A stretch of 47,768 nt of DNA from Sulfuriferula multivorans. Its GTDB lineage: Bacteria; Pseudomonadota; Gammaproteobacteria; Burkholderiales; Sulfuriferulaceae. The notes below the pieces were generated by a model. The model made no database searches. It saw only the letters and a list, made by a program, of their open reading frames with translations, and was not told where the DNA came from. Made by a program: the position numbers and the translations under genes. Location of the stretch: positions 70,099 to 117,866 of the forward strand of contig NZ_BGOW01000033.1 of NCBI RefSeq assembly GCF_003851125.1, in the 5' to 3' direction. Numbering within the stretch: the stretch's first letter is position 1; the number at the start of each line of letters is the position of its first letter. Below are positions 41,116 to 46,983 of this stretch, one piece after another.

Positions 41116-41652
41116 TCAGCTATTTTTTGTTTTTGATACGGTAACCAGAGCCGGCCGCACGATACGATCATGCAACTGGTAGCCTTTTTGGAGCACGGTA
41201 ACGACGGTATTAGACTCGGAATCGGCTTCCACCATGCTGATGGCCTGATGTTTGTGCGGGTCAAATTTTTCGCCAAGCGGATGGATTTCGGTGAGGTTGT
41301 ATTTGTCGAATGCGGCATTCAGTTGCTTAAGCGTGAGTTCAACACCGCTTTTCAAATTTTCGATGCTCGGAGCATCGCTGGAGAGAGCGGCTTCCAGACT
41401 GTCTTTCACAGCCAGCAACTCGGTAGCAAAGCCATCAATGGCATATTTGTGTGCATTGGCAACATCGTGTTGAGCTCGTTTGCGAATATTGTCGGCTTCG
41501 GCTTTGGCACGCAACCAGGCGTCATGATGTTCTTGTGCCAGCAACTCGGATTGTTTGAGAAGTTCTTCCAGGCTGGGCATGGTTTCTGAAGCGCGTTCGC
41601 TTTTGGTTTCAGTGGGGTTTTGTTCTGACTGAGTCTGATTTTCCTGCTGCAT
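41116..41652 (-). CDS. grpE: GrpE nucleotide exchange factor
   Basis: 178 residues from ATG 41652, with GGAGC eight bases upstream; an extended start at 41709 lacks support. The N-terminal ~35 residues are Gln/Glu-rich and disordered. A long coiled coil follows ([20 protein letters not shown]). The C-terminal beta domain has [20 protein letters not shown] and [21 protein letters not shown], the GrpE signature. It releases ADP from DnaK. Confidence 0.96.
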
Positions 41653-41821
41653 GTTGTTCTGCTCCGTGTTTGACTCCAGCACAAATGCGGGTGAATTGGA
41701 AAAATTCAATAGCCGGTAAATATTTTTTTGTCGATTAAACCAGGACAGGGAGATAGATGGCTTTATGCCACTGCGGAAAGCCGCTAGACTTGCAGCAATT
41801 TATTGATAAAGAGTGTCTGAA

Positions 41822-42514
41822 ATGAACACGCTATCGGTGCAAGGAAATTCGCAGACAGCTCCAGTACACGCGGCGCTCTCCATGCTGGATCTGGACAAAT
41901 TCAATGCGACAGCGCTAGAGAAAACACCATTTGAATACCTGATCTTGCCGGGTTTTTTGCGCCAGGAAATGATCGCAGCTATTTCACGTGATTTCCCCAA
42001 CATTTCCAAGCCGGGCAGTTTTCCCTCAGACACATTGCAATTCGGAGGCGCATTCCGTGAGTTGTTGGCCGAACTGGAAGGTGATACTTTCCGCCGAGCA
42101 GTTGAACAAAAGTTTGGCCTGGATTTGACTGGCCGCCCGACCATCATCACCGTGCGGGGGCATACCGATGAAACGGATGGCCGCATCCACACTGACAGCC
42201 GCACCAAAATCATTACCATGCTGATTTATTTCAACGAGGACTGGCATGAATCAGGTGGGCGATTGCGTCTGTTGCGTTCAGGCACGGACCTTGAGGACTA
42301 TGTCGCCGAAGTAGATCCAAGTATTGGCACGTTGCTGGCTTTCCGGCGCAGTGATCATTCCTGGCATGGACACAAGCCTTTTGTGGGACCGCGTCGGGCA
42401 ATTCAATTGAATTGGGTGGTCAATGAGAAGGTCAAACGGCGTGAGCAAAAACGGCATGGCATTTCGGCATTCTTCAAAAACCTGTTTGGTGGCAAGGCTT
42501 CCGCCGGTTATTGA
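41822..42514 (+). CDS. Fe(II)/2-oxoglutarate-dependent oxygenase (prolyl hydroxylase-like)
   Basis: 230 residues from ATG 41822, with AAAGAG eight bases before; a GTG at 41813 is less likely. A double-stranded beta-helix is suggested by IHTDSRTKIITMLIYFNEDWHESGGRLRLL, split as IHTDSRTKIITMLIYFNED and WHESGGRLRLL. The iron ligands would be His and Asp of HTD and a distal His in HSWHGHKPF; the 2OG-binding Arg is in GPRRAIQLNW. The C-terminus is basic (KRREQKRHGISAFFKNLFGG). First gene of a four-gene operon. The substrate is unknown; peptide or glycan hydroxylation are both possible. Divergent from grpE. Confidence 0.85.
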   Translation: MNTLSVQGNSQTAPVHAALSMLDLDKFNATALEKTPFEYLILPGFLRQEMIAAISRDFPNISKPGSFPSDTLQFGGAFRELLAELEGDTFRRAVEQKFGLDLTGRPTIITVRGHTDETDGRIHTDSRTKIITMLIYFNEDWHESGGRLRLLRSGTDLEDYVAEVDPSIGTLLAFRRSDHSWHGHKPFVGPRRAIQLNWVVNEKVKRREQKRHGISAFFKNLFGGKASAGY

Positions 42515-42519
42515 TACGC

Positions 42520-43476
42520 ATGGCAAATAAAGTCTGCTGGGTGCTCTCCACCGGCATTATCGGGATGGACAACCAGTCATTCGGCCTCGCCCATGCGTTG
42601 GGGCTGGAAGTGATAAAAAAAACGGTGGTGCCGACCGCGCCGTGGAAGTATCTGCCGCCGCAACTATGGATTAGACCGCTGCAGTTTCTGGGCGCGGGCA
42701 GCGATCCCCTCGCGCCACCCTGGCCGGATGTGGTCGTAGGGACCGGCCGCCTGACGGTCGCGCTTTCCATCGCCATTAAACGCGCCAGTGCCGGGCGAAC
42801 CGTGAATATCCGCATCCAGAATCCCCAGGTTGCATTGCGCCATTTCGATTGGGTCGTCGCACCCTTGCACGATCGCTGCAACGGCGCCAATGTGATCGAA
42901 ACGCTGGGGGCAGTGAATAGCGTAACGGCGGAACGTTTGCACCGGGCAGCAGAACAATTTGCCACGCAATTGGCACATCTGCCAAGGCCATTGCTGGGCG
43001 TGCTGGTGGGAGGCACCAATCGCAGTGTGCGCATTGATACAACACTCGCCAATGCACTTGCGGACAAGCTCATACACGCTGCGACCGCCCATGGGGCCGG
43101 CATTGTGGTTACGCCATCCCGGCGTACCGCGCCGGAGGTGGTGGACGTACTGCGGCAACGCTTGTCGAATGTCGCTTCGGTGATATGGGATGGCACAGGC
43201 GATAATCCCTACCTGGGTTATCTGGCGCTGGCCGATTACCTTGTGGTAACAGCGGATTCGGTCAACATGGCGTCAGAAGCATGTTTTACCGGCAAGCCAG
43301 TATTTATCGAGGGATTGACTGGCGCCAATAACAAATTTGAACAATTTCATCGAGAATTGCAGGTGCGTGGCTACACGCGACCCTTTACCGGTGAGTTAGC
43401 CGACTGGCATTACCCGCCACTGGATGAAACCAGCCGGGTAGCCAGCTTAATCAAGCAAAGTATGGGGTTGAACTAG
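42520..43476 (+). CDS. ELM1-like protein (mitochondrial fission ELM1 family, GT-B-like)
   Basis: 318 residues from ATG 42520, five bases after the oxygenase stop. Two Rossmann-like halves are visible: ICWVLSTGIIGMDNQ-type start (KVCWVLSTGIIGMDNQSFGL) and GVLVGGTNRSVRIDTT in the middle. LVVTADSVNMASEACFTGKPVFIEGL resembles the nucleotide-sugar site of glycosyltransferases. The family (PF06258) is named after plant ELM1; bacterial members are found near lipopolysaccharide or lipid A genes. Its role is uncertain, but a sugar-linked function with the adjacent oxygenase is plausible. Confidence 0.82.
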   Translation: MANKVCWVLSTGIIGMDNQSFGLAHALGLEVIKKTVVPTAPWKYLPPQLWIRPLQFLGAGSDPLAPPWPDVVVGTGRLTVALSIAIKRASAGRTVNIRIQNPQVALRHFDWVVAPLHDRCNGANVIETLGAVNSVTAERLHRAAEQFATQLAHLPRPLLGVLVGGTNRSVRIDTTLANALADKLIHAATAHGAGIVVTPSRRTAPEVVDVLRQRLSNVASVIWDGTGDNPYLGYLALADYLVVTADSVNMASEACFTGKPVFIEGLTGANNKFEQFHRELQVRGYTRPFTGELADWHYPPLDETSRVASLIKQSMGLN

Positions 43477-45393
43477 ATGGCGTTAAAAATTGAAACCTTC
43501 AGCAATGCCAAAGGCGGCAACAGCTTTTTCAAGGCATTGGGCCACCCGCTTAGCGCACCGCTTGCGGCTGCTTTACTCGACAAGTTGCGGGTTATGGGCA
43601 GCGTTGCCGTGTATGACCCATTGGGGATGGCGGAGAGTTTCTGTGAATTTTATGCGCTGGCCGAGCTGGATATTCGGGCGGTGTTTGTGCAGCGCCTGGA
43701 GGACATCGGCAAAACCTTGCTGGGCATGCGCGTACAGCCCGTTACCGGGCTGCCGCAAAGCGACGCACGGGTGTTGCTGGTCACCGCATTCGACGCATCT
43801 CGTCTGGTGGACCATATCCGCCATCTGTTGCCCCCCGGCATGACGGTCATGAGCCTGGATGACATGCGCCTGCCCGATACCATGCTTACCAACCGTCGGC
43901 GCTATCTCGACCCGCTCAACTTTGCCACCAACTTCGGCTTTTTGCGCGACGCGGCAGGTCAGCACACACGCATTGTGACCTGTGATTACTGGTCCGGGCT
44001 GGGTGCTGCCAAGCCGCCCACTGTGTGGTTGCGCCTGTTCGACAGCAACGGCGGGGTGTTGGCCGAATGGCTGGAGGAAATCCCAGCGCCCGGCGCCAGC
44101 CTGATCGTGGACAGCCGGGAGGTGCGCCGCCGCTTCAATCTCGGCGAATTCACCGGATCGCTGTTCATGCACGTGTTGGGTGTGGCGCGCCACGATGTGG
44201 TCAAGTATGCACTGGATACCTTTGGTGACGATGAAACCGTGCTGTCCTGCACCCATGACGCCAATGCGTGGCCATCCGATTTGTTTGCCGGGCTACCCGC
44301 GCCGCGCGGCAATGAGCGCGTGGTCATGTGGATACAAAACAGTCACCCGGTGCCTATACCGGCGGGCGCAGTGGGGCTCAATCTGATGGGGTCTGACGAC
44401 ATTCGTTATGTGGATCAGATGATACCGGCGTTTGCCTGCTATGCACTCGATGTGGCTGCGCTATTTCCCGAAGCGCGCTGGCCGCAGCAACTGGAAGTAC
44501 AGGCAGGACGCCATTTCGTGCGGCCACGCTACGAGGTACACGTGAAAAACGGGCGCAGTCGCATCGCACACGTCAATGTCGAGCGCAACGATCTCGCCGT
44601 CGATCCTGGTATTCCCGCCATGGCGACGTATATGGGTAAAGGGTACATCCTGCCCGCTCCGATTTTGCCGACGGCGTTATGGCGTAGCGTTGTACAACCC
44701 ACACCGATGTCCACCGCGCAGCGTGATCTGCCGATCGCCGCAATTGTGTATGACGCTTCCGGGGTGGAAACCGCACGCCACGATTTCGGTTGTCTGCAGC
44801 GTAACGAGAGTGTGGAACTTGATATCAATGCATTGTTGATGGAGCAGGGCGCCAATCTGCCCAGCGGCTCCGGCCACATCGAACTGGTTTATGATTTCAG
44901 TCACGGCGGCAGCGCCGATGGCTGGCTGCACAGCCTGTTCCGCTACACCCATAACAGTAGCGGCCACATCGCCGAGTCCAGCTTCGGCGCGCATGTATTC
45001 AACACCGTGCTTACCTACAAGAACGAACCGCAATCCTACGCCAGCGCACCCCCGGGCCTGAGTACGCGGCTGTTCCTGCGGCTGGGCGATGCACCGCTGG
45101 ACACCATGTGTCATCTGATTTATCCGGCTTCCACACCCTGGCATGCGCATTCCGATACCACGCTTAGTTTGTTCAATGGACTGGGTGAGGAAATTGCCCA
45201 ACAAAAAATCGCCATCCCATGCAGCGGATCGCTGCACTGGCGCTATTCGGAAATGTTTGATGCGGATCATCGTCGGCAGGCCGGGCAAGGCGCCTACATC
45301 ATCATTCGCGACGTGACCTGCCGCCTGTTCGGATATCACGGCACATTGCACGGCGAGCAGGCGTTTTGTCTGGATCACATGTTCGGATTTTGA
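43477..45393 (+). CDS. Unrecognised 638-residue protein
   Basis: It starts at the base after the ELM1-like stop, so expression is coupled. I recognise no family. The first ~170 residues look alpha/beta (VMGSVAVYDPLGMAESFCEFY, ARVLLVTAFDASRLVDHI). The remainder appears beta-rich with repeated immunoglobulin- or jelly-roll-like strands, many His/Trp/aromatic residues, and segments such as VLSCTHDANAWPSDLFAG, HGGSADGWLHSLFRYTHN and YPASTPWHAHSDTTLSLF. No signal peptide or helix is visible, so it is probably cytosolic. The conserved-looking His/Asp clusters could bind metal. With an Fe/2OG oxygenase upstream and a hemerythrin fusion downstream, an oxygen- or iron-linked function is suspected but unproven. 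Confidence 0.75.
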   Translation: MALKIETFSNAKGGNSFFKALGHPLSAPLAAALLDKLRVMGSVAVYDPLGMAESFCEFYALAELDIRAVFVQRLEDIGKTLLGMRVQPVTGLPQSDARVLLVTAFDASRLVDHIRHLLPPGMTVMSLDDMRLPDTMLTNRRRYLDPLNFATNFGFLRDAAGQHTRIVTCDYWSGLGAAKPPTVWLRLFDSNGGVLAEWLEEIPAPGASLIVDSREVRRRFNLGEFTGSLFMHVLGVARHDVVKYALDTFGDDETVLSCTHDANAWPSDLFAGLPAPRGNERVVMWIQNSHPVPIPAGAVGLNLMGSDDIRYVDQMIPAFACYALDVAALFPEARWPQQLEVQAGRHFVRPRYEVHVKNGRSRIAHVNVERNDLAVDPGIPAMATYMGKGYILPAPILPTALWRSVVQPTPMSTAQRDLPIAAIVYDASGVETARHDFGCLQRNESVELDINALLMEQGANLPSGSGHIELVYDFSHGGSADGWLHSLFRYTHNSSGHIAESSFGAHVFNTVLTYKNEPQSYASAPPGLSTRLFLRLGDAPLDTMCHLIYPASTPWHAHSDTTLSLFNGLGEEIAQQKIAIPCSGSLHWRYSEMFDADHRRQAGQGAYIIIRDVTCRLFGYHGTLHGEQAFCLDHMFGF

Positions 45394-45398
45394 CTGCG

Positions 45399-46106
45399 AT
45401 GACAGCCGATAATCATTTCTGTGACTTGACCGGGCATGCATCCAGCCAGCTGCAAACTTCCGTATTTTATGAAATCAAGGATATGGCGCGCGGCGAGACC
45501 GTCACCTTCCTGTTTGCTGAAGATCCGGCCATTATCCTGCACAGCCTCAATTTGCAGTTGCGCAACAACCTGCGCTGGGAAGTGAGCGAAGAGCCAGGTC
45601 AGCATTGGCGTGCAGTGATTCATCGTGCCGAGGATGTGCCGCCAGTGGACGTGCTGGATATGCTCAAGCGTGACCACAAACGGCTGGATGCGATGTTCTC
45701 TCAGGTCATCCATCTCACCGATAACGGTCAACTGGAGATGGCACATGGGTTAATGCGCGCTTTTACCGAGGGTCTGCGCAAGCATCTGCGAGTGGAGCAT
45801 GATCTGCTGGCGCGGGCCATCCGCACGCCGCCCAATTCCCAGGGTTTTGATCCCAGCGCCGCGATGGTGCAGGAACACAACGAAATCCTGAATCAGTCGG
45901 TCATGATAGAAGCCGGCTTTGAAGAAACGGATGCGAGTAGTGCGAGTGTAGGGCCTTTGCTGGCCATTCTCGCAGGGTACTTGTCCAAGCATGAGCAACG
46001 CGAGGAAGCCACCTTGTTTCCAGTATGGACAGGGGCGTTGAACAAAGCACCAGAGCAGGCGCGCATGGATTTGTTCAATAAGGTAATGGAGATTTTACAG
46101 GACTAG
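45399..46106 (+). CDS. DUF2249-hemerythrin fusion protein
   Basis: 235 residues from ATG 45399, five bases after the previous stop; an upstream in-frame start at 45366 overlaps that gene. The first ~80 residues resemble DUF2249 (FYEIKDMARGETVTFLFAED, LRNNLRWEVSEEPGQHWRAV). The rest is a hemerythrin-like four-helix bundle with expected ligands: His in LKRDHKRLDAMF, His/Glu in KHLRVEHDLL, His in VQEHNEIL, and His/Glu in SKHEQREEATLFPV. Such proteins bind a diiron site and handle O2, NO or iron; DUF2249-hemerythrin pairings occur near NO-related genes. Last gene of the operon. A convergent AurF-like gene ends seven bases away. Confidence 0.88.
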   Translation: MTADNHFCDLTGHASSQLQTSVFYEIKDMARGETVTFLFAEDPAIILHSLNLQLRNNLRWEVSEEPGQHWRAVIHRAEDVPPVDVLDMLKRDHKRLDAMFSQVIHLTDNGQLEMAHGLMRAFTEGLRKHLRVEHDLLARAIRTPPNSQGFDPSAAMVQEHNEILNQSVMIEAGFEETDASSASVGPLLAILAGYLSKHEQREEATLFPVWTGALNKAPEQARMDLFNKVMEILQD

Positions 46107-46113
46107 CTGACGG

Positions 46114-46983
46114 TTAAAGGGCGGGATCCTTTACCGCAAATCCGTGCCCGCGTAGCAGGTTCAAACTTGGATTCAGGCAGGCTTGAATGAACTCGCGGCG
46201 CGCCGGATTGTGCCGGGCAATCTCACGCCACTGGCGGCCGGGATTAAGACCGGACAACTCATAAACATCGGTCTGCGGCAGATAAAAAGTTGTTACGAAC
46301 TGGCGTATCAATAAATTAACTACTGGGGTCAGCAATTTCTTGTGCCAGGCCGAGGTACGCGCCAAGCTTTGCTCAAGCGCATTACGCGCATGAGCAATGT
46401 GGCGAGCTTCATCAATTACATGCAAAGTGCACATCTGCCGAATCAATGGGTCTACGCTGTCATTACCGTGCGTACGGATGTAGCGGTTAAGTTTGTCTGG
46501 TACCTCTTCACCTATCGTTACGGCCAGCCAGAATAGCGTGGTATTGATCGGTGCATGGCGACCAAGAAAATCCGCAGTGCGTGGCCGGTTGCGCCATACT
46601 CCGGGAAGTCGCAGGCCGCCTTTTTCCATCAACTTGAGAAACATCAGGCTATGCCCGGATTCCTCGCGTATCTCATGCAGGTAGTAAGCGAGTTCCTGTG
46701 CAGACTGGGTATGTTTGAGATTGCGTGACAGGCGTTCCACGAAAATGGCTTCGAGCCACAAGCCAGCCTGTATAAAGCCGGTGAACTCGTATTGCGACAG
46801 ACGAATGCGGGTGGTTTCCGCTAACTCGTCATATTCGCGCGTTCCAAACAAAGAGATGGCTGTGGGCGGTAGCCAGTACGCTTTGGTGTCCAACGTCTCC
46901 CAATTTAGCCGTTGCAGCGGGTCATGGTAGGGTGAACTGTTGGTGGCGAGTTGTTCCAGAAGTGAGAGTTCGGCATACGCCAT
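46114..46983 (-). CDS. AurF-like diiron oxygenase
   Basis: 289 residues from ATG 46983, with AAGG nine bases before; a TTG at 47022 would add 13 residues. The helical ferritin-like core carries the metal motifs YLHEIREESGHSLMFLKLM (E...E..H), FWLAVTIGEEVPDKL and HVIDEARHIAHARNAL (DEARH), as in PF11583 p-aminobenzoate N-oxygenase AurF. Such enzymes oxygenate amines or other small molecules. Alone here, without a biosynthetic cluster. Convergent with the hemerythrin operon, so a shared iron/oxygen theme is possible. Confidence 0.85.
   Translation of the reverse strand: MAYAELSLLEQLATNSSPYHDPLQRLNWETLDTKAYWLPPTAISLFGTREYDELAETTRIRLSQYEFTGFIQAGLWLEAIFVERLSRNLKHTQSAQELAYYLHEIREESGHSLMFLKLMEKGGLRLPGVWRNRPRTADFLGRHAPINTTLFWLAVTIGEEVPDKLNRYIRTHGNDSVDPLIRQMCTLHVIDEARHIAHARNALEQSLARTSAWHKKLLTPVVNLLIRQFVTTFYLPQTDVYELSGLNPGRQWREIARHNPARREFIQACLNPSLNLLRGHGFAVKDPAL

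Follow-up and report, generated by a model that had tools for sequence, protein, structure and literature searches.

We analysed a 47,768-nucleotide stretch of the Sulfuriferula multivorans genome (hereafter the window; genome G000, contig C33) and found that an operon in it carries a conserved unit of two genes, encoding an ELM1 protein and a protein outside known families that we call X638, frequently accompanied by a gene for a 2-oxoglutarate (2OG)-Fe(II) oxygenase. On balance, the operon probably performs an oxygen-dependent step in the assembly of the lipopolysaccharide (LPS) inner core, at the cytoplasmic face of the inner membrane. The three genes lie on the plus strand. Gene 1 of the operon encodes the oxygenase (PF13640, E 1.1e-10; 230 residues; 41822-42514), the next encodes ELM1, a predicted GT-B glycosyltransferase (PF06258, E 2.5e-103; 318 residues; 42520-43476), and the third encodes X638 (638 residues; 43477-45393), the core member of the unit. 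A hemerythrin gene follows, and the gaps between the four open frames are 5, 0, and 5 bases, confirming the first-pass annotation of this DNA, which had taken the four genes as one operon.

Conservation of the ELM1-X638 unit

To find relatives of X638, one genome from each of 84,980 species was searched with a method suited to close relatives. The search gave 107 confirmed relatives, and the best 80 of the 107 formed the set of loci against which five window proteins were compared (tblastn, E ≤ 1e-4); many of these loci are cut by contig ends. ELM1 was found in 69 of the 80 loci and the oxygenase gene in 41; a same-strand position within 2 kb of X638 was seen for 67 of the former and for all of the latter, and 38 loci carried both genes. 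Where X638 starts at least 2.5 kb into the locus, the counts were 61/68 for ELM1 and 35/68 for the oxygenase. In 42 X638 genomes (that of the window and 41 picked from the 80 loci), a genome-wide search found PF06258 in all but one. Among 18 genomes of the genus, 15 have both X638 and ELM1 and three have neither, two of these three being only 75-77% complete. Among 397 sampled genomes of the phylum, X638 occurred in five and ELM1 in 85; all five X638 genomes possessed ELM1, which, according to the coordinates listed, shares the strand of X638 and is no more than 2.9 kb away. The chance of drawing five of five from 85 in 397 is about 4 in 10,000 (hand arithmetic, uncorrected for kinship). Two other genomes of the window's order carry ELM1 without X638. 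Since X638 rarely occurs without ELM1 and ELM1 often occurs without X638, we infer that X638 acts after or together with ELM1. The X638-linked ELM1 proteins also cluster on a quick tree of 62 rows (31 linked and 31 unlinked, the latter being mostly the best-scoring of the 85), which needs 4 changes as compared with a shuffled mean of 20.9.

The unit spans beta-, alpha-, and gammaproteobacteria and metagenome-assembled genomes (MAGs) of Omnitrophota, and its gene order varies. The order oxygenase-ELM1-X638 prevails in most betaproteobacterial and Omnitrophota rows, ELM1-oxygenase-X638 is found in many alphaproteobacteria, ELM1-X638 in others, and oxygenase-X638-ELM1 in locus L063. In G484, G485, and G486, ELM1 and the oxygenase gene stand side by side and the X638 flanks contain no ELM1. 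When mapped on a quick tree of 64 X638 rows, these configurations require at least 11 changes. The fact that the genes stay together despite this reshuffling indicates that the unit is under selection. Co-occurrence across unrelated genera, by which the first-pass annotation had proposed to judge a cluster of five genes, was found for ELM1 and X638 and more loosely for the oxygenase, but not for the two other members, a hemerythrin and an AurF-like protein.

X638 is not a general gene of Omnitrophota, as G462 alone among 97 genomes of that phylum possesses it; transfer into a sub-lineage is therefore likelier. In the tree, very short branches join X638 of a locus from a MAG labelled Anaerolineae (L045) to that of L038, an alphaproteobacterial locus, and the L045 contig is probably misbinned.

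ELM1 and the KdoT precedent

The window ELM1 scores 345.8 bits against PF06258 (cut-off 27) and contains an SRRT motif (S200-T203; 43117-43128, plus strand). The motif is kept in operon homologues (S in 69/70, the two R in 67/70 and 69/70, T in 68/70) and in 32 of 33 further ELM1 proteins, 31 of these 33 being encoded away from X638. Because it is general in the family, the motif backs the chemistry rather than a specific donor. The family takes its name from plant ELM1, a protein of mitochondrial fission, whose role in eukaryotic cell biology distinguishes it from the window protein. A bacterial precedent is the ELM1-like KdoT of Acinetobacter baumannii, a purified and assayed transferase using CMP-Kdo (cytidine monophosphate-3-deoxy-d-manno-oct-2-ulosonic acid); its SRRT motif is conserved, and the second arginine in it is important (PMC12856342). 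The window protein resembles it in description and motif, and the second arginine of its SRRT may correspond to R180 of KdoT, to judge from the motif. The product of KdoT is extended in Acinetobacter by GnaT, so that in both systems a second dedicated protein seemingly depends on the ELM1 product; the partners differ, however, being X638 and a 2OG oxygenase here instead of a GT4 glycosyltransferase. The one-way dependence of X638 on ELM1, together with the analogy to GnaT, suggests that X638 uses the product of ELM1.

The 2OG-Fe(II) oxygenase

The putative metal and 2OG ligands of the oxygenase are retained in the window protein and 40 operon homologues (H123 in 40/41; D125, H182, and R191 in 41/41), and all four are invariant in the 31-row alignment A2. 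H123-T-D125 (42188-42196, plus strand) is the proposed HxD motif, whose two ligands we take, from the superfamily, to bind Fe(II). The Kdo 3-hydroxylase KdoO is likewise a 2OG-Fe(II) enzyme; it belongs to PF11004, however, whereas the window enzyme matched PF13640 and PF13661 only, and a search of its whole genome gave no PF11004 match. LPS is also hydroxylated in an oxygen-dependent manner by the LpxO-type lipid A hydroxylases, which belong to another family and act on acyl chains.

The PDB matches of the oxygenase were a putative hydroxylase and a prolyl-4-hydroxylase-type protein, and a weak resemblance to the cyclophane peptide maturase YhhC was seen (NF041706, 21.8 bits, E 1.2e-4). These matches would fit a peptide or protein hydroxylation system, in which the oxygenase modifies a peptide; our lists of open reading frames covered frames of 80 residues or more, above the size of short precursors. 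The YhhC score is, however, far under the cut-off of 150, so that an assignment to YhhC was rejected, and the recurrent partners of the oxygenase are a glycosyltransferase family and X638. We regard a peptide substrate as very unlikely.

A second conserved set of genes was seen in the window genome and in G462 (L179, G000:C49, 883-3640; L178, 5005-7748). Its products are a paralogue of the operon oxygenase, a further, divergent 2OG-like protein, and one whose C-terminal domain is Ribonuc_L-PSP. Paired oxygenase paralogues also occur in G464, G477, G478, G484, and G486.

Lipopolysaccharide genes around the unit

In some lineages the unit is linked to waaA, to kdoO, or to lipid A genes. The waaA gene lies directly upstream of ELM1-X638 in L028 (PF04413; phmmer) and directly upstream of X638 in L027 (phmmer), both from gammaproteobacterial MAGs. 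In L067, from an alphaproteobacterial MAG, kdoO (PF11004, E 1.6e-105) stands four bases before ELM1-X638, in the place of the oxygenase gene; a frame resembling an RpoH-type sigma factor by eye (L067:631-1569) is found just upstream of these three genes. Downstream of X638, transferases of GT4 and PF13524 occur in L020, L024, and L036; L020 and L024 also have GT9, and L020 has an O-antigen ligase as well. Genomes titled Omnitrophota (G462 and G471) hold a second ELM1 fused to a lipid A acyltransferase (L120:7639-9606 and L119:6141-8108). The fusion protein has 655 residues, PF03279 making up its N-terminal half and ELM1 its C-terminal half, and its gene sits behind waaA-lpxK and before GT4- and GT9-like genes (L120 was scanned with Pfam and L119 by reading). 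By match coordinates, G463 and G465 have a second, similarly long ELM1 frame at a similar distance from waaA. Over the 42 X638 genomes, waaA was present in 39, and five of these (G451, G452, G477, G478, and G482) have it on the same contig as ELM1 or X638, about 15 kb away or less.

Concerning the pathway, KdoO works downstream of the Kdo transferase KdtA and upstream of the heptosyltransferase WaaC (PMC8533242), and in Burkholderia kdoO is listed with the Kdo transferase gene and waaC on either side (PMC5462993). In the mechanism that we propose, ELM1, as a KdoT-like GT-B enzyme, would transfer a sugar acid to the Kdo-lipid A that WaaA produces; this sugar acid would most likely be Kdo, with CMP-Kdo as the donor. 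The oxygenase, where present, may hydroxylate a core sugar, doing the job of KdoO (Kdo to Ko) although it is not a KdoO, and X638 would act on the ELM1 product.

Several observations weigh against this proposal. The LPS links stem from a few lineages. Outside L027 and L028, waaA is mostly far off or on another contig, a comparison of eleven LPS proteins with flanks of up to 6 kb gave no match in 74 of the 80 loci, and housekeeping genes (carB, greA, trxB, and dnaK, named by eye) are common among the neighbours. KdoO was found in four of 32 genomes searched and at the operon in only one, the MAG of L067, so it is not a general stand-in for the oxygenase gene; the genome of L024 holds both the operon oxygenase and a distant KdoO, and the two therefore need not be substitutes. 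Among 20 X638 genomes without an adjacent oxygenase gene, eight have a strong copy (>250 bits) elsewhere, two of these eight with one in-frame stop, and 12 have none, which implies that the oxygenase is an optional part and hydroxylation an optional step. G451, the genome of L027, is the sole X638 genome among the 42 in which no ELM1 was found. Finally, the SRRT motif does not tell the donor of ELM1.

Some of these points would suit a different role, in which the trio makes or modifies another surface glycan or glycolipid, outside the Kdo region, and ELM1 uses another donor. The ELM1 family is broad, as the 85 of 397 genomes indicate, most loci are not beside the LPS proteins tested, and L020 and L024 lie near genes of outer-core or O-antigen type. 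To our knowledge, KdoT and those of its homologues that were tested are the only ELM1-family proteins with a proven donor. On the other hand, the informative direct neighbours are waaA (L027 and L028) and kdoO (L067), and the SRRT arginines are retained. We consider another glycan unlikely and prefer the inner-core assignment, which also agrees with the earlier suggestion that ELM1 hints at a glycan substrate.

X638, a protein outside known families

The first-pass annotation had described X638 as a large protein of no recognisable family, and searches of Pfam, NCBIfam, PADLOC, and PDB, the last with a profile, were all empty; the window protein had no Pfam match at E ≤ 1. The lowest E-values in Pfam for 64 members ranged from 0.013 to 0.24; they fell in nine families, each matched by one to six of the members, and were taken as chance. 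An anti-phage system was rejected because no PADLOC match was obtained in the 64 members. The relatives are about 44-93% identical to the window protein, and the nearest named ones belong to Sulfuriferula and other betaproteobacteria. Alignment A1 has 64 rows, and over 68 sequences 90 of the 638 columns are invariant, often as His, Asp, Lys, Arg, or Trp, which shows that the X638 frames are not chance. The invariant polar residues include K19, H23, D47, H239, K243, H260, D261, H485, H506, E517, D612, R616, H621, D633, and H634; the last two, together with the invariant M635, form a conserved C-terminal tail. The hydropathy profile displayed no membrane segment (top 19-residue mean 1.37). The N-terminal 140 residues or so look Rossmann-like and the remainder beta-sandwich-like, as judged by eye. 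No internal duplication is claimed, since hhalign of sub-alignments, overlapping columns aside, gave probabilities no higher than 17%.

The lack of a known catalytic family raises the question of whether X638 is an enzyme or a scaffold or chaperone holding ELM1, the oxygenase, and WaaA together. Its near-constant company with ELM1 (41/42 genomes) and the grouping of the linked ELM1 proteins would be expected of a scaffold. The many invariant polar residues, however, resemble an active site more than a surface, and in G484-G486 X638 is encoded apart from the ELM1-oxygenase pair. A scaffold thus seems to us the less probable role, though one to be taken seriously.

Hemerythrin, AurF-like protein and other neighbours

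The fourth gene of the operon encodes a DUF2249-hemerythrin protein (45399-46106, plus strand, starting with ATG at 45399; PF01814, E 1.8e-12), whose DUF2249 domain scores below the Pfam threshold (19.4 bits versus a cut-off of 29.5). It is followed by a convergent gene for an AurF-like diiron protein (46114-46983, minus strand; PF11583, E 1.4e-43). Both lie outside the conserved unit. The first-pass annotation had joined them with the trio in one five-gene cluster with an iron/oxygen theme, in which hemerythrin might supply or sense oxygen or NO. In favour of this proposal, the hemerythrin gene is located beside X638 in all 15 X638 genomes of the genus, although at a spacing of 1.1 kb in G010 and on split contigs in G005. 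In the wider search, however, it was found in just eight of the 80 loci, those closest to the genus, with X638 64-78% identical to that of the window, and in neither of the betaproteobacterial loci L020 and L024; a much diverged hemerythrin could be missed at the tblastn threshold used. G006 and G015 carry a 50% identical homologue without X638. The hemerythrin gene is thus an addition within close betaproteobacterial relatives of the window and was rejected as a member of the unit.

The AurF-like gene fares no better. Of 61 relatives, 24 have a match to it. Among these are 17 of the 18 genus genomes (G015 with a fragment alone), and the three genus genomes that lack X638, G006 and G016 included, all belong to the 17. 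By coordinates, G000 and G001 are the only genomes in which it was seen to adjoin the operon; contig ends obscure the adjacency in the fragmented G002 and G005, and no AurF-like gene was detected in the 80 X638 loci. It is therefore a genus-wide gene rather than a member of the unit. The annotation itself had named confinement to close relatives, or routine occurrence of these two genes without the others, as evidence against its cluster; this is largely the pattern of the hemerythrin and AurF-like genes, and it is not that of the trio. We give the explanation as an iron/oxygen/NO response cluster hardly any credence. G045, which belongs to a different family, encodes a protein 69% identical to the AurF-like one.

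On its other side, the operon adjoins grpE- and dnaK-like frames (named by eye), and a tRNA-Ser gene is nearby. The grpE-like frame, with dnaK after it, is divergent from the operon and shares a short intergenic region with it (window 41116-41821); this arrangement recurs in several related betaproteobacterial loci.

Discussion

Inner-core assembly is of a kind already known, and the new element is probably the composition of the trio. In the literature on bacterial ELM1 and more widely, neither X638 nor the trio appears in the titles and abstract openings among the matches listed. We tentatively put forward a bolder combination, which is possible but doubtful as a whole: that X638 founds a new class of inner-core enzyme acting solely on a KdoT-type product, that the PF13640 protein is an independently arisen hydroxylase of Kdo or a core sugar, and that scattered proteobacteria and Omnitrophota share this undescribed oxygen-dependent type of inner core.

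X638 represents a highly conserved family of about 640 residues, and its defined set of partners makes the function testable. If the proposal is true, X638 would gain its first function, and the recently recognised ELM1-type Kdo transfer, separate from WaaA, would extend to many environmental bacteria. The hydroxylation of inner-core sugars may then have evolved more than once. The results also bear on the roles that ELM1 proteins had before their use in plant mitochondrial fission.

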